Part shown: in pieces, positions 5,339 through 32,916 of the stretch
Position numbering within the stretch: the stretch's first letter is position 1
How the letters are laid out: every line of letters starts with the position of its first letter
Assembly (NCBI RefSeq): GCF_023151265.1
Contig: NZ_JAKLJH010000001.1
Span: 1-51,838 of the forward strand
Length of the DNA: 51,838 nt
DNA from: Flavobacterium sp.
GTDB lineage: Bacteria; Bacteroidota; Bacteroidia; Flavobacteriales; Flavobacteriaceae
Direction of reading: 5' to 3'
Program-made: the position numbers and the translations under genes
The notes under the pieces: generated by a model
The model's input: only the letters and a program-made list of their open reading frames with translations
The model's database searches: none
Told to the model about the DNA's origin: nothing

Positions 5339-7027
5339 TTATTCTCCTAGTAAAACTCCTGAAACATTCCAAGCGCTAAAACTTCCACCTTCATTTGGGC
5401 CTTGAGGGATTTTCACTTGTATCGTATGAGTTCCCGCTTTCAAATCTCCTAATTCAATATAAATCGGATTCGTGGCTGTACCTGGACACCAATTCGAACG
5501 ACTCAAATCAGATGAAGACAACCCATCGTTAAAATTTCCGGAAACTGGATTAAATAATCGGTAGCCACCACAATCTTGTCGCCATGGAATAAACGAAAAC
5601 AATTCTTTCCCGTTTAAAACAATCGTATTTCTTTTTGGAACAAATTCATCACCATTTTCCCAGCCACCATGTCCAGTCGAAATGTAACGTAGTTTCGCAT
5701 TTTTGATTTCTTTATCTAACGTGAAAGTAACTTCCAAACCTTTTTCATGATTGAACATCGTAGCATATTCTTGTTCTGCCATTTCCATTACGTTTGTTGT
5801 ATTAAATAACGGAATAGAAATATTGGTTTTGTCTAATGAACTCTCGCTCGGATTAATCGTAATATTCATCGAGATTTTATGTCCGCCTTTATCATAATTA
5901 CCAATAAAAGTTCCTACGTAAACGGTTTTTCCTGATAGATTCGATTTTAAATCAGTAATTTCCATTCGGTACGGAACAATTTCGTGCCAAGTTTTATCTT
6001 TCAACTGAATGTAGTTGTATTGTTTAATTCCGAAAGGAGTAAAAAAGCGCATTAATTCAATAATTGGAGAAAATTCTGTTGTAGCTACAACACCTTGATA
6101 TTTTTTTCCATTTCCGTTTTCATAAATAGGTAGAGTTTTAGCACCATTTTGCAAACCATCTAAAAACGATTGTTTCTTATCTTGCGGAATCACAAAAACT
6201 GAACCTGTTCTGTCATAAGCATCGCCATTTGATTGCTCAGTTAAATCTAAAAAGACTAAATCTCCTTTTTTAATTTCCGGAAAAGTGATTTTTTTTAAGA
6301 TGATGGTTCCGTTTGCAAATCGTAAGATACTGTCATTAGATTTTGAGCTTTCTGAAAAGTTAATGGTTTCATTTTTAAAAACTTTAATTGTTGTGAAACG
6401 ACTTTTCCAAACCAAATCTTTATAAGTTAATCCATCTAAAACAGGACTTTTGGTTGTACTTTTTTGTAATTCTAAACTCGGACTAACCGATTTTATTTTC
6501 TCGATTTTAGTAGCTGAAATCACAAAATTCCCATTACGAACCATTTCCAAAACCAGACCAATGTTTTGTCCTAATGTTGTTGGCGCTCCTTTAACTTGTA
6601 ACTCGTTAGTGTACCAAAGTTCCATTGTATTTGAGTTGACAATGATTTTTGCTTTTTGACATTTGTAACCTAAAATTGTTTTAGTCTCTGCTAGAAATTC
6701 GAAATTTTGTTTCGCTAAAGAAAGACTATCAACCGTAGTAACCGATTTCTCTTTTTTGAGTTGGGTTACTTGAACAATTTTATTTTCAGTGTGATTGATT
6801 AATGTTTGTTCAAAAGGAAAACCAGCTTTTCCAAAATTCATTTTTTCTGAAGTAACTAAAGTTTCTGTTGGATTTGTAAAAACTAAAATCGCATCTTGAT
6901 TTTCGATTAGTTTTCCATTTGAGCTTCTAGTGTAAGTAATTTTGAATCCTTTTGGCGGTTTTGCATTGGTTTGAGATTGTGCGAACGTAAAAAGGCTTAA
7001 TAATGTGATGGTTATAAAATTTTTCAT
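5339..7027 (-). CDS. secreted PNGase F-like protein with N-terminal GLPGLI-like domain
   Basis: DAYDRTGSVFVI (cf. PNGase F DEWDRYANVYV), GHGGWENGDEF...WRQDCGGYRLFNP...WCPGTATNPIYIELGDL; N-terminal ILGYKCQKAKI..ELWYTNEL. Confidence 0.8.
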   Translation of the reverse strand: MKNFITITLLSLFTFAQSQTNAKPPKGFKITYTRSSNGKLIENQDAILVFTNPTETLVTSEKMNFGKAGFPFEQTLINHTENKIVQVTQLKKEKSVTTVDSLSLAKQNFEFLAETKTILGYKCQKAKIIVNSNTMELWYTNELQVKGAPTTLGQNIGLVLEMVRNGNFVISATKIEKIKSVSPSLELQKSTTKSPVLDGLTYKDLVWKSRFTTIKVFKNETINFSESSKSNDSILRFANGTIILKKITFPEIKKGDLVFLDLTEQSNGDAYDRTGSVFVIPQDKKQSFLDGLQNGAKTLPIYENGNGKKYQGVVATTEFSPIIELMRFFTPFGIKQYNYIQLKDKTWHEIVPYRMEITDLKSNLSGKTVYVGTFIGNYDKGGHKISMNITINPSESSLDKTNISIPLFNTTNVMEMAEQEYATMFNHEKGLEVTFTLDKEIKNAKLRYISTGHGGWENGDEFVPKRNTIVLNGKELFSFIPWRQDCGGYRLFNPVSGNFNDGLSSSDLSRSNWCPGTATNPIYIELGDLKAGTHTIQVKIPQGPNEGGSFSAWNVSGVLLGE

Positions 7028-7059
7028 AAATGTTGAGTTGTTCAGCAAATATAATTTTT

Positions 7060-7067
7060 TATCTTTG
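7060..7067 (+). promoter_or_regulatory. Bacteroidota -7 promoter element (TATCTTTG)
   Basis: TAnnTTTG motif 27 nt upstream of the DUF2851 ORF. Confidence 0.5.
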
Positions 7068-7093
7068 TTTTTCAATTATATACGCCATACAGA

Positions 7094-8362
7094 ATGAAAG
7101 AAGATTTTTTGCACCACGTGTGGCAATTCAAGAAATTTGATATTGCCAATTTAAAAACTACAAAAGGAGAATCAATTCAAATTCTCAATTCGGGTCAATA
7201 TTTGCAACTTACGGGACCTGATTTTTTCAATGCGCAATTGATTATCGGAAATCAAAAATGGGCTGGAAATGTAGAAATTCATCTCAAGTCATCAGATTGG
7301 TATGTTCACAATCATGAGAAAGATTCCAATTATGATTCTGTTATTTTGCATGTCGTTTGGGAATATGATGTGCCTATTTTTAGGAAAGATGATTCCGAAA
7401 TTCCAACGTTAGAACTCAAGGAATATGTTGCTCTTACAGATTTGCATAAATATCAGTCGCTAGTAAGTCAGAAATCCTGGATTTATTGTGAAAATGAAAT
7501 TGGAAATGTAGATGATTTTATCTTTAAAAATTGGCAAGAACGTTTGTTTTTTGAACGCTTAGAACGAAAATCGCAACTAATTTTTGAATTAGCGGAAATT
7601 TCTAATCAAGATTGGGAAGCAGTTTTGTTTTGTCTTTTAGCTAAAAACTTCGGATTGAATACGAATGGTGAAATGTTTTATAAAATTGCTAAATCAATTC
7701 CGTTTTCGGTTGTTCGAAAAGAATCTTATTCTTCGGAATCGTTAGAAGCTTTATTATTAGGTCAAGCGAATTTGCTTTCACAAGATTTTCAAGATAATTA
7801 TGCGAAAGAGTTGCAAAAATCCTATAATTACTTAGTTCTGAAATATCAGTTGTGTGAAAAAGTATTTGGTTTGGTAGAATTCTTCAAACATCGTCCAGAT
7901 AATTTTCCTACTATTCGATTGGCGCAATTGGCTAATTTGTATTTTCATCAAAAGAATCTTTTCTCTTTGGTTATGAATGGTACTTCCATAAATGAATTGT
8001 ATCAGATTTTTAATGTAGGAGTAAGCCAATATTGGGAAACACATTATAATTTTGATAAAGATAGCTCGAAAAAGATGAAAAAACTTTCTAAATCATTTAT
8101 CGATTTATTGGTTATCAATACAATCATTCCACTTCGATTTGCTTATGCCAGAAGTCAACAAAAAGAAATCACACAGGAATTAATTGATTTAGCGATTTTA
8201 ATACCTGCAGAGAAAAACGCAATTCTTGAAAAATTTTATTCTTTCGGAGTCAACTCTCAAAACGCATATGAATCTCAATCCTTATTGCAATTAAAAAAGA
8301 ATTATTGCGATAATAAAAAGTGTCTAGATTGTGCTATCGGACATTTTATACTTAAAAAATAA
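7094..8362 (+). CDS. DUF2851 family protein
   Basis: MKEDFLHHVWQFKKFD...GNVEIHLKSSDWYVHNHEKDSNYDSVILHVVWE; C-terminal CDNKKCLDCAIG. Confidence 0.85.
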   Translation: MKEDFLHHVWQFKKFDIANLKTTKGESIQILNSGQYLQLTGPDFFNAQLIIGNQKWAGNVEIHLKSSDWYVHNHEKDSNYDSVILHVVWEYDVPIFRKDDSEIPTLELKEYVALTDLHKYQSLVSQKSWIYCENEIGNVDDFIFKNWQERLFFERLERKSQLIFELAEISNQDWEAVLFCLLAKNFGLNTNGEMFYKIAKSIPFSVVRKESYSSESLEALLLGQANLLSQDFQDNYAKELQKSYNYLVLKYQLCEKVFGLVEFFKHRPDNFPTIRLAQLANLYFHQKNLFSLVMNGTSINELYQIFNVGVSQYWETHYNFDKDSSKKMKKLSKSFIDLLVINTIIPLRFAYARSQQKEITQELIDLAILIPAEKNAILEKFYSFGVNSQNAYESQSLLQLKKNYCDNKKCLDCAIGHFILKK

Positions 8363-8388
8363 TCGTATTTTTGGAAAAAATATTAAAA

Positions 8389-8610
8389 ATGGTTCAAAAC
8401 CTATTGCATTTTTTTGAAAAACATGGATTTTTTGTGGCCACACGTTTGGCCGACCGTTTGGGTATGCGTGCTACTAACGTGCGTTTGTTTTTTATTTACA
8501 TATCTTTTATAACAGTAGGTTTAGGATTTGGATTGTATCTTACTTTGGCATTCCTTTTAAAGTTAAAAGATATGATAAAAACTAAAAGAAGTTCAGTTTT
8601 TGACTTATAA
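8389..8610 (+). CDS. PspC-domain small membrane protein
   Basis: GFFVATRLADRLGMRATNVRLFFIYISFITVGLGFGLYL; likely ATG start at 8389 rather than 8371. Confidence 0.75.
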   Translation: MVQNLLHFFEKHGFFVATRLADRLGMRATNVRLFFIYISFITVGLGFGLYLTLAFLLKLKDMIKTKRSSVFDL

Positions 8611-8633
8611 AATTTCATTAAGTGTAAGTTTTA

Positions 8634-8663
8634 TTTGAATTTTAGATACTTTTATTATCTTTG
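8634..8663 (+). promoter_or_regulatory. Bacteroidota promoter (TTTG - 18 nt - TATCTTTG)
   Basis: TTTG at 8634-8637 and TATCTTTG at 8656-8663, upstream of the transporter ATG at 8689. Confidence 0.65.
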
Positions 8664-8688
8664 AAGCATTAACAACCAATAAAATTAT

Positions 8689-10509
8689 ATGGCAGCAAAA
8701 GTAGAAGCGTGGGGTTCACGCGTAGGACTAATCTTGGCTATGGCTGGAAATGCTGTTGGATTAGGGAATTTTTTAAGATTTCCGGTTCAAGCAGTTCAAA
8801 ATGGTGGAGGGGCCTTTATTATTCCTTATTTAGTTTGTTTTTTATTAATGGGAATCCCATTATTGTTGATTGAATGGTCAACAGGTCGTTTCGGTGGAAA
8901 ATTTGGTAACCACAGTACACCTTATATATTAGATACAATGGCTAAAGGTCGTGTATGGAAATATATAGGTGTTTTTGGAATTTTTACTAATATTGCCGTT
9001 GCTGCATATTACTGTTATATCGAGTCTTGGACAATGTCTTATGTGTATCACTCAATTGTAGGAACATTTGACGGAATGAGTCAAGCAGACGTAGCAGGAT
9101 TCTTCAATTCTTATGTGGATATTTCTCAATCTACTACTGGAATTCCTTACGAAGCAGTTATCTTTTACATTTTATGTTTATTATTAAATACTTGGATTTT
9201 ATCTAAAGGTTTAGGAGGTATCGAGAAAGTTGCCAAAATTGGAATGCCATTATTGATTTTATTCGGTGTAATTTTAGCCGTAAGAGGAGTTACTTTAGGA
9301 ACTAGCGGAGCTTCAGATATTTTTCCAAATGCAAATGCATGGGATGGTCTAAATTTCTTATGGACACCACAATTTGATTCATTGGCAAATCCTAAGGTTT
9401 GGTTAGCTGCTGCAGGTCAAATTTTCTTTACGCTGTCAGTAGGTATGGGAACCATTCATTGTTATGCGGCTTACTTAAAAGAAAAAGATGATGTGGCATT
9501 AAATGCTGTATCTGCTGGATTTATGAATGAGTTCGTTGAAGTGGTTTTAGGTTCTTTAATTGTTATTCCTATTGCTGCTGGATACTTAGGATTAGATTGG
9601 GTTATTCAAAATGCAGGTTTTGGTATGGCTTTCCAAACAATGCCTTATTTGTTCCAACAATGGGGTGGTGTTTTAGCTATCTTAGCTGGTGTTTTTTGGT
9701 TCGGACTTTTATTCTTTGCCGGAATTACTTCTTCATTAGCTATGGGAACCCCATGGATGGGATTCATGTCTGATGAATTTGGCTGGTCTAAAAATAAAGG
9801 AGCATGGTCTTTTGGAGCCTTAGCTTTAATTATGGGATTACCAACGGTTATTTTCTATAATCAAGGAGTTTTTGATCAATATGACTATTGGGCAGGAACT
9901 GTGAGTTTGGTTGTATTTGCTTTCTTAGAAACCGTATTGTTTTCTTATATCTTTGGAATTAACAGAGGGTGGGAAGAAATCAACAAAGGAGCTGATATCA
10001 AATTGCCTAAATTCTTTAAATATGTAATTTTGATTATTACACCATTATTATTAGGTGCTGTTTTGGTGTCAAGTATTCCAGATTGGGTTAATCAAATTAA
10101 GAACAACGATACCAATAATAAAGAATGGTTTGCCGATAATTATTTTGCTGAAAACTTTGAAGGTTCGGGTGCTGTTTCTGGAAAAGTTATTGAGGTAAAA
10201 TCGGATTATATAAAATTTGAATTTGAAAGCGAAAGAAAGAAATTTGATAAAGTGTCGAATCAAGTTCTTGTTGAAAAATTCAATGATACAAAAGAATATA
10301 AATTTGATTCAAGTTTAAATCAAGAAGCTATTGTAAAAGTTGGAGATGTTATCAAACCAGGTGATGCAATTGCGAAAGGGAATTTTACAAACAATACATT
10401 ATATAAATTTATAGGAAGAATGTTATTGTTGTCACTTTTTGTATTTATTTCAATAATTGTTTACGTTGCTTACAAGAAACGTGTTAAAGAAGGGAGAGCT
10501 ACATTATGA
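8689..10509 (+). CDS. sodium-dependent NSS-family (SLC6-type) transporter with extended loop near C-terminus
   Basis: WGSRVGLILAMAGNAVGLGNFLRFP NSS signature; 12-TM-like pattern. Confidence 0.9.
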   Translation: MAAKVEAWGSRVGLILAMAGNAVGLGNFLRFPVQAVQNGGGAFIIPYLVCFLLMGIPLLLIEWSTGRFGGKFGNHSTPYILDTMAKGRVWKYIGVFGIFTNIAVAAYYCYIESWTMSYVYHSIVGTFDGMSQADVAGFFNSYVDISQSTTGIPYEAVIFYILCLLLNTWILSKGLGGIEKVAKIGMPLLILFGVILAVRGVTLGTSGASDIFPNANAWDGLNFLWTPQFDSLANPKVWLAAAGQIFFTLSVGMGTIHCYAAYLKEKDDVALNAVSAGFMNEFVEVVLGSLIVIPIAAGYLGLDWVIQNAGFGMAFQTMPYLFQQWGGVLAILAGVFWFGLLFFAGITSSLAMGTPWMGFMSDEFGWSKNKGAWSFGALALIMGLPTVIFYNQGVFDQYDYWAGTVSLVVFAFLETVLFSYIFGINRGWEEINKGADIKLPKFFKYVILIITPLLLGAVLVSSIPDWVNQIKNNDTNNKEWFADNYFAENFEGSGAVSGKVIEVKSDYIKFEFESERKKFDKVSNQVLVEKFNDTKEYKFDSSLNQEAIVKVGDVIKPGDAIAKGNFTNNTLYKFIGRMLLLSLFVFISIIVYVAYKKRVKEGRATL

Positions 10510-10661
10510 ATTCAGCAGCATTAATTACAATGGTTTTGGCACAAGGAATTGTTATTTGTTTAACACTTTATTTTTTCTATAAAGTTTTAAAAACTCCACC
10601 TGTACAGGAACCAGATTCCTTCTCTGATAATGATGAGGAATCAGTTAGAAAAAACGATTAA
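10506..10661 (+). CDS. MetS-like NSS transporter small subunit (51 aa, not in supplied ORF track)
   Basis: ATGA overlap with transporter stop; MNSAALITMVLAQGIVICLTLYFFYKVLKTPPVQEPDSFSDNDEESVRKND, one TM helix. Confidence 0.75.
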   Translation: MNSAALITMVLAQGIVICLTLYFFYKVLKTPPVQEPDSFSDNDEESVRKND

Positions 10662-10672
10662 ATAAAAGTAAA

Positions 10673-11551
10673 ATGAATAAAATAAAATCCTACTTCATGT
10701 TTTCAAGAGAACACCGAAGTGGGATTTTCTTGTTATTTGCAATCATCATTTTGGTACAGTTAAGTTATTTTCTTTTTAAGGATAATTTTACGTCAACAAA
10801 AAATAATCCTGAAGATAAAGCTTGGTTGTTAGTTCAAAATGAAATTGATAGCTTGAAAAGTATTCAATCAACAAAAAAAGATACAATTTATCCTTTTAAT
10901 CCAAATTATATAACAGACTACAAAGGATATAAGTTAGGAATGACAATTCAAGAAATTGATCGTTTACATGCTTTTCGTAAAACTGGAAAATTTGTAAACT
11001 CAGCAGAAGATTTTCAACAAGTTACTAAAGTTTCAAATGCATTTCTTTCTAAAATTAGCCCTTATTTCAAATTTCCAGATTGGGTAAAAAATAAGACCAA
11101 TGTTGCTTCAGAAAAGTTTCATAAGTTTTTACCAAAGGAAAAAGAAAAAATCATCCAAAAAGATATAAACACAGCAACTCGAGAAGATTTAATTGCAGTG
11201 TATGGTATTGGGGAAAAATTAGCGGATAAGATTTTATTAGAAAAAGAGAAGTTGGGATGTTTTGTGAGTATGGAGCAATTTCAGTTTATGTGGGGAATTA
11301 GCCCAGAAGCTTTGGCGGATTTAGAAAAAAGATTTACCGTAAAAACTCAAAACGGATTGAGTAAAATTGCAATTAATGATTTGTCTCAGAAAGAATTGGC
11401 AAAATTTCCCTATTTTAATTATGCATTGGCTAAAGAAATTGTCATTTATAGAACCATGAATAATGGAATTAAGAATATTGATGATTTAACAAAAATTAAG
11501 GGAATGCCTAACGAAAAAATAAAAATAATCGCCTTATATTTGGATTTTTAA
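10673..11551 (+). CDS. helix-hairpin-helix (ComEA-like) domain protein
   Basis: N-terminal TM helix, DINTATREDLIAVYGIGEKLADKIL HhH motif. Confidence 0.85.
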   Translation: MNKIKSYFMFSREHRSGIFLLFAIIILVQLSYFLFKDNFTSTKNNPEDKAWLLVQNEIDSLKSIQSTKKDTIYPFNPNYITDYKGYKLGMTIQEIDRLHAFRKTGKFVNSAEDFQQVTKVSNAFLSKISPYFKFPDWVKNKTNVASEKFHKFLPKEKEKIIQKDINTATREDLIAVYGIGEKLADKILLEKEKLGCFVSMEQFQFMWGISPEALADLEKRFTVKTQNGLSKIAINDLSQKELAKFPYFNYALAKEIVIYRTMNNGIKNIDDLTKIKGMPNEKIKIIALYLDF

Positions 11552-11590
11552 AAATATTACCAATAAAACAACCTATACAATTACAGATTT

Positions 11591-12760
11591 ATGAATTCAA
11601 TGTATTTCACAGAAGAACACGAATTATTCAGACAAAGTTTTAGAGATTTTTTACATAAAGAAGTGGTTCCTCACATTGAAAAATGGGAAAAAACAGGAAC
11701 TATTGAGCGTTTTATTTGGGAAAAATTTGGAGAAATGGGCTTCTTTGGATTAAATTATCCTGAAGCGTATGGAGGAATGAATTTAGATTTATTCTACACT
11801 GTTATATTTTTAGAAGAACTTCAAAAAGTAAAATCTTCTGGTTTTGCTGCAGCTATGTGGGCACATGCTTATTTAGCAATGACACATTTAAATGCTGAAG
11901 GAGATGAAAGAATTAAACAAGATTATTTAGCGCCAAGTATTGCTGGAAAAAAAATTGGAGCTTTGTGTATTACAGAGCCATTCGGTGGAAGTGATGTTGC
12001 TGGGATGAGAACAACAGCGGTAAGAAGTGGAGATAAATTTGTAATCAATGGTTCTAAAACATTTATCACAAACGGAGTTTATGCTGATTACTATGTTGTA
12101 GCCGCTAAAACAAACCCAGAATTAGGGAATAAAGGAATTAGTATTTTCTTAGTAGATGCAAAAAACCCAGGTATTTCTGCTACTAAGCTAGATAAATTAG
12201 GTTGGAGAGCATCAGATACTGCTGAACTTGCATTTGATAATGTTGAAATTCCTCTAGAAAATTTAATGGGTGAAGAAGGAAAAGGTTTTCCATACATTAT
12301 GCAGCATTTTGCTTTAGAGCGTTTAATTATGGCAATCAACGCTCATGCAAGAGCAGAATATGCGCTTGAGTATACTATAGAATACATGTCGCAACGTGAA
12401 GCTTTTGGTAGTAAAATCAACAAGTTTCAAGCTTTAAGACATACAATGGTAGAGCATGCAACAGAAGTAGAACATTGTAAAATATTTAACTATGCTGCTG
12501 TAGCTCGTTTAGATAAAGGTGAATATGTAGTTAAAGAAGCTACTATGGCAAAATTAAAATCGACTAAAGTGGCTGATTTAGCTATTTACGATTGCTTGCA
12601 AATGCTAGGTGGTTATGGTTACATGGAAGAGTATCCATTAGCACGTTTATTAAGAGATAGTCGTTTAGGTCCAATTGGTGGAGGAACTTCTGAGATTCTG
12701 AAAGAAATTTTATCAAAAATGATAATTGATAATCAGAATTATACACCAGCAGTTAAATAA
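11591..12760 (+). CDS. acyl-CoA dehydrogenase family protein
   Basis: CITEPFGGSDVAGMRTTA, INGSKTFITNGVYADYYVVAAKT, QMLGGYGYMEEYPLARLLRD. Confidence 0.93.
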   Translation: MNSMYFTEEHELFRQSFRDFLHKEVVPHIEKWEKTGTIERFIWEKFGEMGFFGLNYPEAYGGMNLDLFYTVIFLEELQKVKSSGFAAAMWAHAYLAMTHLNAEGDERIKQDYLAPSIAGKKIGALCITEPFGGSDVAGMRTTAVRSGDKFVINGSKTFITNGVYADYYVVAAKTNPELGNKGISIFLVDAKNPGISATKLDKLGWRASDTAELAFDNVEIPLENLMGEEGKGFPYIMQHFALERLIMAINAHARAEYALEYTIEYMSQREAFGSKINKFQALRHTMVEHATEVEHCKIFNYAAVARLDKGEYVVKEATMAKLKSTKVADLAIYDCLQMLGGYGYMEEYPLARLLRDSRLGPIGGGTSEILKEILSKMIIDNQNYTPAVK

Positions 12761-12802
12761 TTTTAATTTATAATTTTTAATTTATAATTTTTAATTCAGA
12801 AT
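12761..12802. repeat. 14-bp tandem repeat, about 3 copies (TTTTAATTTATAAT)
   Basis: two exact and one degenerate copy directly upstream of the rpsU promoter. Confidence 0.85.
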
Positions 12803-12809
12803 TATTTTC

Positions 12810-12817
12810 TACATTTG
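12810..12817 (+). promoter_or_regulatory. Bacteroidota -7 promoter element of rpsU (TACATTTG)
   Basis: TACATTTG; implied 5' UTR about 25 nt. Confidence 0.6.
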
Positions 12818-12830
12818 CACCCTTAACGAG

Positions 12831-12838
12831 AGGAGGTG
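12831..12838 (+). promoter_or_regulatory. strong Shine-Dalgarno sequence AGGAGGTG upstream of rpsU
   Basis: 8-nt complement of 16S 3' end (CACCUCCU); ATG at 12847. Confidence 0.85.
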
Positions 12839-12846
12839 TCTATATT

Positions 12847-13041
12847 ATGTTAATTATACCAATTAAAGACGGAGAAAATATCGATAGAGCATTAAAGCGC
12901 TATAAAAGAAAATTTGATAAAACAGGAACTGTTCGTCAGTTACGTGCACGTCAAGCTTTCATTAAACCATCTGTTGTAAACAGAGCTAAGATCCAAAAAG
13001 CATCTTACATTCAAGGATTAAGAGACTCATTAGAGAGTTAA
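12847..13041 (+). CDS. rpsU: 30S ribosomal protein bS21
   Basis: DGENIDRALKRYKRKFDKTGTVRQLRARQAFIKPSVVNRAK. Confidence 0.95.
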   Translation: MLIIPIKDGENIDRALKRYKRKFDKTGTVRQLRARQAFIKPSVVNRAKIQKASYIQGLRDSLES

Positions 13042-13060
13042 TTTTTGAATAAACTATACT

Positions 13061-13105
13061 AACCGCTAACTAATAAAGTGTAACTTTGTTGTTAGCGGTT
13101 TTTTT
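13061..13105 (+). terminator. terminator-like hairpin ending at the next gene's start codon
   Basis: AACCGCTAAC ... GTTAGCGGTT followed by T-run directly abutting ATG at 13106. Confidence 0.75.
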
Positions 13106-13996
13106 ATGTCTACAAATCTACAAGCATATCAAGATTATTTGGTTAAAGAGAAGAATTATTCTCCTTTAACGGTTCGTGCGTATTTAGATGATATCAAATC
13201 TTTTCAAGAATATCTTACTGGTCAATCTGTAAATCTCGATGAAGTTATTTATCCACATGTTAGAAATTGGATAGTAACTTTAGTAGAGCAAAATATTTCA
13301 ACCACTTCGGTCAATCGAAAAATATCAGCATTAAAATCGTATTATAAGTTTCTTTTAAAAGTAAAGCAGATTTCGGTTAATCCTTTATTGAAACATAAAT
13401 CATTAAAAACAGCCAAGAAAGTTCAAATTCCTTTTTCCGAAAAAGAGTTACAAGATGTTTTTTTAGATAATGATTATTCAAGTGACTTCGAAGGTGTTCG
13501 AAATAGATTTGTGATTGAACTTTTTTATGCTACAGGAATAAGAAGGGCTGAGTTGATAAATTTACAGTTAAATAGTGTAAACGAAATTCAAAAAACAATT
13601 CGGGTTGTTGGAAAAAGAAATAAAGAGCGAATTATTCCAATGTTAGATTGTACGTTAAATTTGTATAAGATGTACAAGGAACAACGAAATCATTTAGAGG
13701 TAATTAACGATAAAGAGATGTTAATTTTATCTAAAACTGGAAATAAAGTAAGCGAATCGTTTGTTTATCGGTTAATAAATGACTACTTTAGTGCTGTCTC
13801 GAAAAAAGAAAAGAAGAGTCCCCACGTTCTTAGGCATTCCTTTGCAACACATTTGTTGAACAATGGAGCCGATTTAAATTCCGTAAAAGAGTTATTAGGT
13901 CATGCTAGTTTGTCGTCTACTCAGATATATACCCACAGCAGTTTGGCTGAATTAAAAAAAGTGTATCAAGAAGCGCATCCTAGAAACAAAAAATAA
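13106..13996 (+). CDS. tyrosine recombinase, XerC/XerD type
   Basis: [46 protein letters not shown]. Confidence 0.93.
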
Positions 13997-14029
13997 CTCT
14001 ATTGTATAACCATTTTAATTAACAGAATT

Positions 14030-14332
14030 ATGAAAGTTAATGTGCAAGCAGTAAATTTTAATGTAGACAGAAAATTGGTAGATTTCATTCAAGAGCGAAT
14101 GGATAAATTGGAAAAATATTATGATAAAATAGTTTCGGCTGAAGTTTTTTTGAGGCTTGAAAATACGAGTGATAAAGAAAATAAAACAGTAGAGATAAAA
14201 ATTAATGTTCCAGGAGACGATTTTGTAGTTAAAAAAACAGCAAAAAGTTTTGAAGAGGGAGTAGATTTATCTGTTGATTCTTTAGAGCGAGTAATCTTAA
14301 AAAGAAAAGAAAAATTAAGAGCGCATTCATAA
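14030..14332 (+). CDS. hpf: ribosome hibernation-promoting factor / RaiA family
   Basis: QAVNFNVDRKLVDFIQERMDKLEKYYDKIVSAEVFLR; 100 aa short form. Confidence 0.88.
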   Translation: MKVNVQAVNFNVDRKLVDFIQERMDKLEKYYDKIVSAEVFLRLENTSDKENKTVEIKINVPGDDFVVKKTAKSFEEGVDLSVDSLERVILKRKEKLRAHS

Positions 14333-14355
14333 AAAGAAAAAAAACATAAAAAATG

Positions 14356-14386
14356 TTTTGATTCAAAAATAAATTATATACATTTG
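14356..14386 (+). promoter_or_regulatory. Bacteroidota promoter (TTTTG - 18 nt - TACATTTG) of tRNA-tuf operon
   Basis: TTTTG 14356-14360, TACATTTG 14379-14386. Confidence 0.75.
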
Positions 14387-14387
14387 C

Positions 14388-14414
14388 AGTCCGTTAGAAA
14401 TAGCGGACTTTTTA
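14388..14414 (+). terminator. promoter-proximal hairpin with T-tract
   Basis: AGTCCG-TTAGAAATAG-CGGACT then TTTTTATATTT. Confidence 0.6.
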
Positions 14415-14424
14415 TATTTAAGTT

Positions 14425-14498
14425 GCCGGTGTAGCTCAGCTGGCTAGAGCAGCTGATTTGTAATCAGCAGGTCGTGGGTTCGAGTCCCTCCATCGGCT
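14425..14498 (+). tRNA. tRNA-Thr(TGT)
   Basis: cloverleaf; anticodon loop TTTGTAA; acceptor GCCGGTG/CATCGGC; CCA not encoded. Confidence 0.93.
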
Positions 14499-14530
14499 CA
14501 AAGTTGTAAGTAGCTTAATATAAAAGGTTT

Positions 14531-14612
14531 GGGGAGATACTCAAGCGGCCAACGAGGGCGGACTGTAAATCCGCTGACTACGTCTTCGCAGGTTCGAATC
14601 CTGCTCTCCCCA
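14531..14612 (+). tRNA. tRNA-Tyr(GTA)
   Basis: acceptor GGGGAGA/TCTCCCC, long variable arm, anticodon GTA. Confidence 0.93.
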
Positions 14613-14683
14613 CGAGATTTTGAATTTAGAGAGAAGGATTTGGTTTTTCTGAATTCTGATGGCTAACTTCTGAATACACAAAA

Positions 14684-14755
14684 GCCGGTGTAGCTCAGGG
14701 GTAGAGTGCTTCCTTGGTAAGGAAGAGGTCACGGGTTCAATTCCCGTCATTGGCT
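14684..14755 (+). tRNA. tRNA-Thr(GGT)
   Basis: acceptor GCCGGTG/CATTGGC, anticodon loop TTGGTAA. Confidence 0.92.
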
Positions 14756-14812
14756 CTTAAAAAAGTTTATTTTTTGAACACTAATATATAACTAAGATTA
14801 AATTATTAAATC

Positions 14813-16000
14813 ATGGCAAAAGAAACCTTTGATCGTTCGAAGCCCCATTTAAATATTGGAACTATCGGACACGTTGACCACGGTAAAACTACGTTAACAG
14901 CTGCAATTACTAAAGTATTAGCTGATGCTGGTTTATCAGAAGCAAAATCATTTGATCAAATTGATAATGCTCCAGAAGAAAAAGAAAGAGGTATTACTAT
15001 TAATACATCTCACGTAGAATATTCTACAGCTAACCGTCACTACGCTCACGTTGACTGTCCAGGTCACGCGGATTACGTTAAGAACATGGTTACAGGTGCT
15101 GCTCAAATGGACGGTGCTATCTTAGTAGTTGCTGCTACAGATGGTCCTATGCCACAAACAAGAGAGCACATCCTTTTAGGTCGTCAAGTAGGTGTGCCTA
15201 GAATGGTTGTATTCATGAACAAAGTGGATATGGTTGATGATGCTGAATTATTGGAATTAGTAGAAATGGAAATTAGAGATTTATTATCTTTCTATCAATA
15301 TGATGGTGATAATGGTCCAGTTATCCAAGGTTCTGCTTTAGGTGGATTGAATGGTGATCCAAAATGGGTTGCTACTATCATGGAATTAATGGAAGCTGTT
15401 GACAACTGGATTGAATTACCAGCTCGTGATGTTGATAAGCCTTTCTTAATGCCAGTTGAAGACGTATTTACAATTACTGGTCGTGGAACTGTAGCTACAG
15501 GTCGTATCGAAACAGGAGTTGCTAATACAGGTGATGCTGTTGAAATCATTGGTATGGGAGCTGATAAATTAACTTCTACTATTACAGGAGTTGAGATGTT
15601 CCGTAAAATCCTTGATAGAGGTGAAGCTGGAGATAACGTAGGTTTATTATTAAGAGGTATCGCTAAAGAAGATATCAAAAGAGGAATGGTTATTGTTAAG
15701 CCAGGATCTGTTAAACCACACGCTCACTTCAAAGCTGAGGTATATATCTTGAAAAAAGAAGAAGGTGGACGTCATACTCCATTCCACAATAACTACCGTC
15801 CACAGTTCTACGTACGTACAACTGACGTAACGGGTACTATTTCTTTACCAGCTGGTGTAGAGATGGTTATGCCTGGTGATAACTTAACAATTGATGTTAC
15901 TTTGTTAAGCCCTATCGCTTTATCAGTAGGTTTACGTTTCGCTATCCGTGAGGGTGGTAGAACAGTAGGTGCTGGTCAGGTTACTGAAATTTTAGACTAA
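14813..16000 (+). CDS. tuf: elongation factor Tu
   Basis: [51 protein letters not shown]. Confidence 0.99.
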
Positions 16001-28690: not shown

Positions 28691-28746
28691 CAAATAAGAA
28701 TTATCGTTATACTAAAGTGAAAAATTGTATAATTAATCTTATAAAA

Positions 28747-30210
28747 ATGAAATATCTTTTATTAGCGTTCTTTTTTCTTCAAATTTCTTATTCTCAAAAT
28801 GTTTCAATTCAGTTAAAATTTCAAAATGCTTCTGATTCTATTCCTATAGTTGTTAGTAAATCAATAAATGAAAATGCGGCTTATTTTTTATATCATTCAG
28901 ACACAATTTATACAAAAAATAACAAAGCTGAATTAAAATTTGATGCTAGCAATCCTGGTTATCTTTACTTTGTGTTTTCTAAAGTTAATCCGGGAATAAA
29001 TATATTGTATGAACCAAATGAAACGATTGTTTTAAATGTTTCTAAAAATCAAGATAATAAATATCAGATTCATTATGAAGGTAGAAATAGCTCTATTTTA
29101 TTAGCAATAAATATAGATTCGATTTATAAATACCAAAAATTTTCACAAAAATTAAAACCGGTGATTTTTAATGCAAATAAAGGAACTGATATTTTGAATT
29201 TTATAAAGAATGAGCATAAATTAGAATCTGAAAGATTGAAAACTTTTTTTGAAAAAGGGGAAATCTCTAAAGATATTTATGAAATTTCAAAACTCTATCT
29301 CGAAACAACACTAGCTAATAATTCAAAAAGCATTATTGAAGATGTTTTTAGAATAGAAGAGGAGTTCACAAAGACAAAATTACCTAAAAGTGAGTTTTTA
29401 GATTTATTAAACAGTTTAATGACGGAATTTAATCCGTTTGATGATAAATTTAAAAATTTTACAACATTTGCTTTTTTTGATAATGTTCAATCATTTACAA
29501 GATTTATGAACGAAAGCGGTTTTGAGGAAAAACGTTATGATATGGGATTATGGAAGAATAAAAATGTTAGAGATTACTATAATTTTATTCCATTGCCTTT
29601 GCAAGAAAAATTATTTGTTCATTTATTTAGTAACGATAGATTAGATGAAAATGATTTTAAACAATTTAAAAAAGTATTTCCAAATAGTAGATACACAGCT
29701 TATTTAGAAGAATATTTGAGAAATAAAAAAGTTTCAGATTACAAACCTTATGCTTTTGGTTATTTTCTAAACGGAAAATTTGAATATAATAAACAAGTAA
29801 ATAGTGTTGATATAACTTCTATTATAAAAGATAATTTTAGCGGGAAAGCCGTTTTTGTTGATTTATGGGCTTCATATTGCGCACCTTGTTTTCAAGAGTT
29901 TTCTCATTCTCAAAAGCTATTTGCCTTTTTGAAAACAAATAATATCGAAATGTTATATTTAGCAATAGATAAAGACAAGGAAATTACCAAATGGCTTCCA
30001 AATATTAAAAATAATCATCTAGAAGGGAATCATATTTTTACGTCAGATAAAATTCAAGAATCTCTTCAGAAACTTTTAAACGAACCCAACGGTGTTTTTA
30101 TTCCGAGATATTTATTGTTTAATGAAAAAGGAGAGTTGGTTCTTCCATCCACAAAAAAACCTTCTGAAAGTCAAGTTTTGTATGATGAAATTTTAAATGC
30201 TTTGAAATAG
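28747..30210 (+). CDS. secreted TlpA-type thioredoxin-fold protein
   Basis: signal peptide MKYLLLAFFFLQISYSQ; VFVDLWASYCAPCFQEF CxxC motif. Confidence 0.85.
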   Translation: MKYLLLAFFFLQISYSQNVSIQLKFQNASDSIPIVVSKSINENAAYFLYHSDTIYTKNNKAELKFDASNPGYLYFVFSKVNPGINILYEPNETIVLNVSKNQDNKYQIHYEGRNSSILLAINIDSIYKYQKFSQKLKPVIFNANKGTDILNFIKNEHKLESERLKTFFEKGEISKDIYEISKLYLETTLANNSKSIIEDVFRIEEEFTKTKLPKSEFLDLLNSLMTEFNPFDDKFKNFTTFAFFDNVQSFTRFMNESGFEEKRYDMGLWKNKNVRDYYNFIPLPLQEKLFVHLFSNDRLDENDFKQFKKVFPNSRYTAYLEEYLRNKKVSDYKPYAFGYFLNGKFEYNKQVNSVDITSIIKDNFSGKAVFVDLWASYCAPCFQEFSHSQKLFAFLKTNNIEMLYLAIDKDKEITKWLPNIKNNHLEGNHIFTSDKIQESLQKLLNEPNGVFIPRYLLFNEKGELVLPSTKKPSESQVLYDEILNALK

Positions 30211-30227
30211 TACATTCTGATATTGCA

Positions 30228-32378
30228 ATGAAAAAAACACTAGTTATTTTATTTATTCTATTTGGTTTTACAATCTATTCACAAGAATTCAATCCAAAAA
30301 CAATAAATCTTTCACAAAATCCTGAAATCACAGATTTTAGTTTCTTAAAAGAAGAATTGAAAGATATTCAAGTAGTTATGCTTGGAGAAAATACGCATTT
30401 TGATGGAAATGTATTTGAAATGAAAACTAAAATCGTTCAATATTTGCATCAAGAGATGGGGTTTAATACAATCGCATTTGAATCTGGAATTTATGATGTA
30501 TGGAAAGCGCAAAAGAATATTGAGAAAGGTCAAAATGTAAAGGAATCACTTTCAAATTCTTTGTTTTCTATTTGGGCAAAAAGAAATGAATTTCAAAGTT
30601 TTATCGAGTTTTATAATCAGAATAAGAAAAATTTAAATCTGTTTGGTTTTGATTATCAGATTACTGGTAAGAATGGGACGGTTAATCTTTCTAAGGATTT
30701 TTTTAACTATTCTAAAAGAATTAATTATAAATTAAAGCTGAAACAAGAAGATTTTGAGTTGCTTTTAGAATCGATTACTAATTCTGGTATGTTTGATGAA
30801 GAAGACATTTCTTATGAGCAATTTAAAACCGAATTAACATCATTTAAAACTAAAATTAGTCAGCAAAAAGATTCTGAAGAAAAGTTTTATTGGAATCAAA
30901 TTGTAAAAAGTCTTTTAGAGTTAGGTTACGATGCTATTTCAAAAGAAGAGATTTCAAGTACTTTCAATACAACTTCATATGACAATATTCGCGATAAACA
31001 AATGGCGGATAATTTATTGGCTTACTTGAAACAAAATCCTGAGGCTAAAATAATTTGTTGGGGAGCCAACGTACATTTCGTAAATAATAAGAGTTCAATT
31101 ACTGAACCTATATTAAAAGAGTTTGTACCAATGGGTTCTTACATTAAAGGAGAACTAAAAAGCAAGGTGTATAGTTTAGCTGCTGTAACGGCTGAGGATT
31201 CTATTTATCTTCAAAATAAATGGCACAAAACACCAATTAAAAAGCACTCATTTGAGTATTTTTTAAAAGAAAAAAATGCGTCACCACATGTTTTCATTTC
31301 TTCAAATCAAATTGGAATGCAAATTTTAGCATGGAATCGACTTTTTAGCCCAATTACATTTGTGGAAAGTAAATTAAATGAGTTGCATGATGGTTATCTC
31401 TATTTTAGAAGTGTTACACCTTCCACTATAATAGATTCAGATGAAGAGAATAAAGTTTCTAAAACTAAAGATATACTAACGGCTAATTTATCAGAGCCTA
31501 ATGATGATGAACTTAAAAAAAGGGAATTAAATGAAGTTGTTATTTACGGAAAAAGAACAGCTTATCAGATAATGAAAAGCGTTATTGAGTCTTTGGAGAA
31601 AAATTATCCTGATAATCCCTTTAATTCATCGATGAAAACGAATATACAAGCCAAGATTGCAACGATTACTTATCTCGATTTTGATTTTTTTGCCGAACAA
31701 TATGATTTAGGTTACGTAAATCATATCAACAGAAGTACAAAAAATATAAAAGAGTTAAGATGGAATAAGAAAGGCGATTTTTTGTCCGACAACTTAAGAG
31801 AATATCATGGTTTGATGTACAATTGTCCAATAAAATATGCGCCTTTTTTGAAAAAAGGAAAGTTTCAGAAATTTATTTTTCAAATTGAAGAAACTAAGAT
31901 GTACAACAATGAAGAAGTTTTTGTGATTAATTATTCATCACCAAGAAATCATTCCACTTTTACAAGACGCGTTTTCTTAAGTGATTATTCAGGATATTTG
32001 TACGTGAATAAAAAAGATTTTGCTATTGTAAAGATTTTCGAAAATTGGTCAGTAACTGAGTTTCCAGAACATTTCAGAGAAGGATTTAATCTTAAGAATT
32101 CGTTGTCAAAATACACTTCAAAAGAATATAAAAACGAATCGATACTTACCGATTTTACAAAGATTGGTGAGTACTATTTCATTACACAATCTACAAGTGT
32201 TTTATGTGGAAATGTTTATAACAATACATCTGATAAAGATGAATTTGAAATTATCGTAAATTCAAATTGGAATGATTTTAACATTCAAAATCCTATTCAA
32301 ATAAAAAATAAAGAGGAAGAACATTCGTTTGAAAAAGTAAAATATAATGCTGGTTTTTGGAATGATTTTAAGTTTTAA
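30228..32378 (+). CDS. secreted erythromycin esterase-like protein with extra C-terminal domain
   Basis: VVMLGENTHFDGNVFEMK..IAFESGIYDVWKAQ, IICWGANVHFVNN; C-terminal LNEVVIYGKRTAYQIMKSVIESLEKNYPDNPFN. Confidence 0.75.
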   Translation: MKKTLVILFILFGFTIYSQEFNPKTINLSQNPEITDFSFLKEELKDIQVVMLGENTHFDGNVFEMKTKIVQYLHQEMGFNTIAFESGIYDVWKAQKNIEKGQNVKESLSNSLFSIWAKRNEFQSFIEFYNQNKKNLNLFGFDYQITGKNGTVNLSKDFFNYSKRINYKLKLKQEDFELLLESITNSGMFDEEDISYEQFKTELTSFKTKISQQKDSEEKFYWNQIVKSLLELGYDAISKEEISSTFNTTSYDNIRDKQMADNLLAYLKQNPEAKIICWGANVHFVNNKSSITEPILKEFVPMGSYIKGELKSKVYSLAAVTAEDSIYLQNKWHKTPIKKHSFEYFLKEKNASPHVFISSNQIGMQILAWNRLFSPITFVESKLNELHDGYLYFRSVTPSTIIDSDEENKVSKTKDILTANLSEPNDDELKKRELNEVVIYGKRTAYQIMKSVIESLEKNYPDNPFNSSMKTNIQAKIATITYLDFDFFAEQYDLGYVNHINRSTKNIKELRWNKKGDFLSDNLREYHGLMYNCPIKYAPFLKKGKFQKFIFQIEETKMYNNEEVFVINYSSPRNHSTFTRRVFLSDYSGYLYVNKKDFAIVKIFENWSVTEFPEHFREGFNLKNSLSKYTSKEYKNESILTDFTKIGEYYFITQSTSVLCGNVYNNTSDKDEFEIIVNSNWNDFNIQNPIQIKNKEEEHSFEKVKYNAGFWNDFKF

Positions 32379-32499: not shown

Positions 32500-32916
32500 A
32501 TGAAAAAAATTCTATTAATTTTAATGGTTGCTCAATTTTTTATTAGTTGTAAGGATGAAACAAACAATCTTACAATTGATAATAAAAACTTTATTGTAGG
32601 TAATTGGGATTTCTTAATAGAAAATGGATTTAACTGTTATGAGTGCAATCAGATAGTATTCGAAACTAATGGAACTGGAAATCTTATAATTTCATCAACG
32701 GAAAAAATAGAATTTGTCTATGAACTATTTCCTAATAAAAAAATAAAATTTGACTTTATTGAAAAAGGAACTCAGACCTTTTTTAAAGAATCTGAAATGT
32801 TCTATTATAAAAATCAAACAATAAATGATATCGAATATTTTGATTTATTTGATTTAAAAAACAGAGAAATAATACATTCACTTATAAGAACTTCACCTAG
32901 CAAAAATATTAAATAA
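32500..32916 (+). CDS. hypothetical lipoprotein
   Basis: lipobox MVAQFFISC-KDE. Confidence 0.6.
   Translation: MKKILLILMVAQFFISCKDETNNLTIDNKNFIVGNWDFLIENGFNCYECNQIVFETNGTGNLIISSTEKIEFVYELFPNKKIKFDFIEKGTQTFFKESEMFYYKNQTINDIEYFDLFDLKNREIIHSLIRTSPSKNIK

Follow-up and report, generated by a model that had tools for sequence, protein, structure and literature searches.

An erythromycin-esterase-fold protein with a CarbopepD_reg-type tail in Flavobacterium: a candidate exported hydrolase of modified peptides

What does an erythromycin-esterase (Ere)-like enzyme do when it carries a second domain and an apparent signal for export? The question is raised by a 51,838-nucleotide stretch of a Flavobacterium sp. 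genome (contig NZ_JAKLJH010000001.1, positions 1 to 51,838; hereafter the window), in which an open reading frame with an ATG start encodes a protein of 716 aa. The original prediction, made from the DNA sequence, described an Ere-like enzyme fused to a C-terminal domain typical of Bacteroidota surface proteins and suggested a secreted hydrolase. We analyzed the domains of this protein, its relatives, and the genes around them. The features of the locus are collected in Table 1.

The N-terminal half belongs to the erythromycin-esterase family. PF05139 (Erythro_esteras) matched the window protein with 65.2 bits (E = 1.1e-17; cut-off 26.4), so the search of the esterase family, whose failure would have spoken against the prediction, did return a match. 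The predicted esterase motifs are in place, GENTHFDGNVFEMK at residues 53-66 and IICWGANVHFVNN at residues 275-287. The closest solved structures by sequence are those of the B. cereus proteins 2QGM (E 1.5e-9) and 2RAD/3B55 (1.1e-7), followed by EreC 6XCQ (5e-4). Catalysis by EreC has been assigned to E47, H50, E78, R261, and H289, with H50 as the catalytic base (PMC7979712). Sequence alignment to EreC maps these residues to E54, H57, E85, R255, and H283 of the window protein; H283 faces an Asn in the alignment because 6XCQ bears the H289N mutation. All five residues are invariant across 29 relatives, at identities down to ~21%. The PF05139 score and the retained catalytic set thus bear out the Ere-like domain. 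Against the NCBIfam macrolide-esterase models EreA, EreB, and EreD the window protein reached 24-37 bits, compared with cut-offs of 750-800; EreC was compared via 6XCQ only.

The C-terminal half had no match of its own in a Pfam scan, and a profile search of the PDB with this tail gave no match. A search with the tail profile matched the C-terminal half of stand-alone proteins composed of a signal peptide, CarbopepD_reg_2, and the tail (E down to 6e-14), and hhalign aligned the tail with these proteins at a probability of 99% (E 3e-18). The stand-alone proteins (L047-L053) are 405-473 aa long and come from other genera and families. Their homologous C-terminal domain stands in the same order after LxEVx, but they have no Ere domain and have kept CarbopepD_reg_2. 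Judged by these profile matches, the C-terminal ~280 residues are the domain that comes after CarbopepD_reg_2 in other Bacteroidota envelope proteins, much as had been predicted, and this homology rules out a standard EreA C-terminus. DUF5686 proteins (CarbopepD_reg_2 plus PF18939) show weak, partial similarity to the tail profile; they differ in forming a ~670-position family with proteins of ~820 aa.

Every family relative of the C-terminal half carries an N-terminal Ere domain, and the fusions come in two sizes: (i) a short type of ~710-726 aa, and (ii) a long type of ~780-814 aa. The additional residues of the long type are CarbopepD_reg_2 (PF13715), which still lies between the two halves in 17 of 29 members and was mapped directly in L004, L006, L025, and others. 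A Pfam scan found no PF13715 in the window protein. The region matching window residues 395-440 spans 105-127 residues in long types and 46-56 in short types, which therefore have no room for the 88-position domain. In L004, PF13715 covers residues 420-503 (model positions 1-88 of 88) and residue 504 is aligned with window residue 440. The LNEVVI segment of the window protein is aligned with the final PF13715 positions of L004, and we therefore regard it as what is left of that domain's last strand. The ancestral protein had, in order, a signal peptide, Ere, CarbopepD_reg_2, and the tail. In a tree of the Ere and tail regions without the linker, the 12 short types, including the window protein, group together with a single state change (support 79/79); as read from this tree, CarbopepD_reg_2 was lost once, in the window protein's clade of 12. 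We note that at one locus (L074:7741-10160, genome G426) a short-type fusion without CarbopepD_reg_2 has, directly upstream of it, genes for a TlpA-like protein and for two CarbopepD_reg_2 proteins of 280 and 508 aa. The lost domain is perhaps supplied there in trans.

The whole architecture is kept at ~21-30% identity in other genera, and a full fusion with CarbopepD_reg_2 (L245, 859 aa) was found outside the order, within the same class. By these comparisons the architecture is conserved far more than chance would explain. PF05139 occurs in 60 of 396 genomes of the phylum, mostly in solo proteins of ~400-490 aa. The genus also has solo Ere proteins, which a tree places outside the clade of fusions (support 86/72), and no second Ere was found in the window genome. 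PHROGs profiles gave no match for the fusion, nor was a relative found in viral contigs. The genes of relatives are simple ORF calls rather than curated annotation. Among them, one fusion gene is broken into two ORFs of 586 and 216 aa, apparently by a frameshift (L027/L098; G322:C1:1065578-1067870), and genome G033 carries long-type fusions in tandem copies (L087, L010, L011). Other long PF05139 proteins of the phylum (L215, L217, L237, L238; ORFs of 585-673 aa) may be different fusions.

The N-terminus of the window protein, MKKTLVILFILFGFTIYSQ followed by E, was judged by eye to be signal-peptide-like and without a lipobox. Relatives likewise begin with a hydrophobic stretch with A/S-Q at its end. 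Library profile scans found no T9SS C-terminal signal in the window protein. From the putative signal peptide and a tail of the kind found in envelope proteins, we infer that the fusion is exported and located in the envelope. The "surface protein" of the original prediction is upheld as far as the CarbopepD-type tail is concerned, but with neither a lipobox nor a T9SS C-terminal signal a surface location is unproven.

Table 1. Features of the fusion gene and its upstream neighbor, in window coordinates.
Feature	Position	Strand	Basis
TlpA/thioredoxin-like secreted protein, outside the conserved unit	28717..30210	+	absent in L013, L014, L015 at same locus
Ere-fold/CarbopepD-tail fusion protein, 716 aa	30228..32378	+	ORF call, profile scan, alignment of relatives
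Putative signal peptide, residues 1-19, without lipobox	30228..30284	+	sequence reading
Erythromycin-esterase-fold domain, residues ~33-395	30324..31412	+	PF05139 best stretch 74-348; 2QGM match 18-334
E54 and H57 (GExxH), equivalent to EreC E47 and H50 (catalytic base)	30387..30398	+	EreC mapping; roles from PMC7979712
E85, equivalent to EreC E78	30480..30482	+	EreC mapping; relatives' alignment
R255, equivalent to EreC R261	30990..30992	+	EreC mapping; relatives' alignment
H283, equivalent to EreC H289 (N in mutant 6XCQ)	31074..31076	+	EreC mapping; relatives' alignment
Short linker, residues 396-433; site of CarbopepD_reg_2 in 17/29 relatives	31413..31526	+	linker lengths; PF13715 scan
LNEVVI, residues 434-439, last-strand remnant of lost CarbopepD_reg_2	31527..31544	+	alignment with L004
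C-terminal domain of CarbopepD_reg proteins, residues 440-716, no Pfam family	31545..32375	+	profile matches L047-L053; hhalign 99%

The gene was also predicted to follow a secreted TlpA-type protein by 17 bp. The measured gap is indeed 17 bp, and the upstream ORF matches Redoxin (E 1.7e-7) and DUF4369 (E 3e-4). Among the close relatives compared, the TlpA gene is present in the window and L012 only, and the spacing is therefore a recent local feature. The other three of four close relatives (L013, L014, L015) carry the fusion at this locus but lack TlpA, which argues against TlpA as part of the system and rules it out as a functional partner. In the nearest species the gene order is rpoC, DUF3467, GNAT, fusion, rluF, zfC4, NIF3, and this position beside rpoC/rluF is stable across five related species. 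More distant relatives of the fusion occupy other sites, and two further fusion subclades are found within or close to this rluF-zfC4-NIF3-LpxK-PNP block. With three separate subclades in or beside it (window:28193-38312; L080-L082, L091, L097, L098), this block downstream of rpoC looks like an accessory-gene hot spot; it also houses the TlpA gene of the window and a Schlafen/AlbA_2 gene in L012 (7257-8285). Between the fusion and rluF, the window encodes a small putative lipoprotein (32500-32916) with no family match above cut-off, which was not seen at the same place in L012-L015.

A neighbor scan revealed the LANTHIPEPTIDE link: class I lanthipeptide genes at 3 of about 27 fusion loci, in three Flavobacterium genomes, against a chance expectation of ~0.004 loci (a rough figure from average gene numbers). 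At the first locus (L095, genome G407), a short-type fusion 57% identical to the window protein stands in the order LanB-N, LanB-C, fusion, LanA, LanC, C39-peptidase ABC transporter, HlyD. Its ATG comes directly after LanB-C, and the precursor is a 52-aa GG-leader peptide, MKKLKLNKKTISVLDKKEMKTVKGGDQPEFLSIVSCRASNSGWDCCSSGPCV, encoded at L095 10792-10947. This split-LanB operon (5452-15795) lies downstream of relaxase and DnaG-like genes and is therefore probably on a mobile element. The other two fusions are of a diverged long type; the order is LanA, fusion, LanC, LanB in both, with a small gap between fusion and LanC in L096 and an overlap in L097. These two loci have one LanB/LanC type in common (about 52% identical) and may represent a single recruitment event.

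When we counted from the side of the lanthipeptides, the fusion was present in the same 3 of 60 LanC loci of the genus and phylum, with no Ere in the remainder. It is therefore neither required by nor typical of lanthipeptides. Conversely, ~24 of 27 fusion loci, that of the window included, have no lanthipeptide gene nearby, and our own filter found no GG-leader peptide near these orphan fusions. LanB, LanC, and LanA are missing beside the fusion in the window. Searches of the window genome matched neither LanC nor LanB; the control for the LanB search was silent, so the absence rests on LanC. The window copy is therefore an orphan. In genome G249 the fusion occupies the chromosomal site that it has in G290, but LanC, LanB, and the precursor are missing. 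Hence, either orphans arise beside operon copies, or an orphan came first and the operon was assembled around it. At a separate LanC locus (L167; G302:C1:1701500-1718500) we observed about a dozen GG-leader lanthipeptide precursors that closely resemble one another, whose cores have SGPYVSWCHGC or a similar sequence at their end.

The L095 precursor has relatives in three operons (L174, L205, L207) that have no fusion and instead encode a secreted Hydrolase_4 alpha/beta hydrolase, which adjoins LanA or lies upstream of LanB. LanB-N, LanB-C, and LanC of L207 are 70, 69, and 66% identical to those of L095, and the genomes of the sister operons (G242, G320, G204) contain no full-length fusion. 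Such a hydrolase is present in 4 of 60 LanC contexts. These gene contents show two unrelated, putatively secreted hydrolases swapping between sister operons. The precursors of all three fusion operons also have a hydrophobic-S-hydrophobic segment directly before the first Cys (FLSIVSC, ILSIGKIC, FLSIGTTC). Elsewhere among LanC loci with candidate precursors, the motif was seen in 2 of 4 alpha/beta-hydrolase operons and 1 of 39 others (Fisher p about 9e-5, for a motif picked after seeing the data).

We hypothesized that the window gene product is an exported, catalytically competent Ere-fold hydrolase, which its CarbopepD_reg-type tail would probably place in the periplasm or at the outer membrane. 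As proposed for EreC, H57, oriented by E54, would activate water together with E85 and H283, and R255 would assist. The enzyme would cut an acyl bond in a modified peptide that has been exported, or in a comparable small molecule, rather than in a macrolide. Lanthionine rings contain no ester, so that the target of an Ere-type esterase would have to be an amide bond or an ester not yet known. In lanthipeptide operons the fusion would take over the role of the secreted alpha/beta hydrolase, in one of two ways: (i) immunity, in which the product would be destroyed outside the cytoplasm; or (ii) trimming, in which residual propeptide would be removed after the C39 transporter has cut at GG. Immunity fits better with orphan copies in non-producers, and the segment before the first Cys would fit trimming. 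The window copy would most likely be an orphan protective enzyme that degrades the peptides of neighbors. We assign a probability of roughly 0.4 to an exported hydrolase whose substrates are exported modified peptides, in immunity or trimming, with substrate and activity deduced from sequence and gene context. That these fusions form an undescribed Bacteroidota class of lanthipeptide-acting hydrolases for immunity or final trimming, interchangeable with secreted alpha/beta hydrolases and with orphans defending non-producers, is a more doubtful proposition.

The main rival is a general periplasmic or outer-membrane hydrolase of an ester in envelope polysaccharide, lipid, or a secreted metabolite, unrelated to peptides, with three operon recruitments for immunity or by hitch-hiking. 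This would suit the many fusion loci without a lanthipeptide gene and the stable rpoC/rluF locus. It would also suit the nearest solved relatives, B. cereus BcR135/BcR136 (2QGM, 2RAD, 3B55), which are named succinoglycan biosynthesis proteins, themselves lack a CarbopepD-type tail, and have p-nitrophenyl butyrate as the only esterase activity mentioned (PMC7979712). However, a general hydrolase leaves unexplained both why, in two distant subclades, the gene is tightly packed with LanB/LanC/LanA and why it is exchanged with secreted alpha/beta hydrolases, and we consider it possible but rather doubtful. The motif common to the three precursors and the position beside LanA could also indicate a lanthipeptide maturation protease, which would strip the acidic pro-segment still left ahead of the LSI-type motif after the C39 cut at GG, with orphans serving precursors elsewhere or persisting as relics. 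We know of no protease activity in the Ere branch; with no LanC detected in the window genome and no GG-leader peptide near orphan copies, this explanation is unlikely.

EreA, EreB, EreC, and EreD share with the window protein the fold family and the catalytic set assigned in EreC, which would be expected of a macrolide esterase conferring erythromycin resistance. Yet the fusion scores far under the Ere subfamily cut-offs, is nearer 2QGM/2RAD than EreC by sequence, and is predicted to be exported rather than cytoplasmic. It also has a C-terminal domain, ancestrally with CarbopepD_reg_2, and another genomic setting, with a chromosomal site and a lanthipeptide context, and macrolide resistance is highly improbable as its function. 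A folded, inactive pseudo-enzyme acting as a binding protein would be in keeping with the strong divergence and the gain of binding-type appendages, but is hard to reconcile with five invariant catalytic residues, and we give it the least credence.

In the literature we found no paper joining erythromycin esterase with a carboxypeptidase regulatory domain, and only a graspetide study joining erythromycin esterase, lanthipeptide, and Bacteroidetes (PMC8939145). Its account of "cluster 575" places an Ere homolog beside GG-leader peptides and suggests resistance or modification. The likeness lies in an Ere-type gene beside a GG-leader RiPP precursor; the differences are the Gammaproteobacteria host, the ATP-grasp peptides, and, within that account, no description of a tail domain.

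An "erythromycin esterase" annotation is often counted as a resistance gene. The present branch retains the Ere chemistry, but it is apparently exported, bears an envelope-type tail, and occurs in lanthipeptide operons, which probably makes such an annotation misleading. If the link to peptides is true, the fusion would offer a testable candidate for the immunity or trimming step that is still missing for Bacteroidota lanthipeptides, and part of the Ere family would have a natural substrate beyond macrolides.
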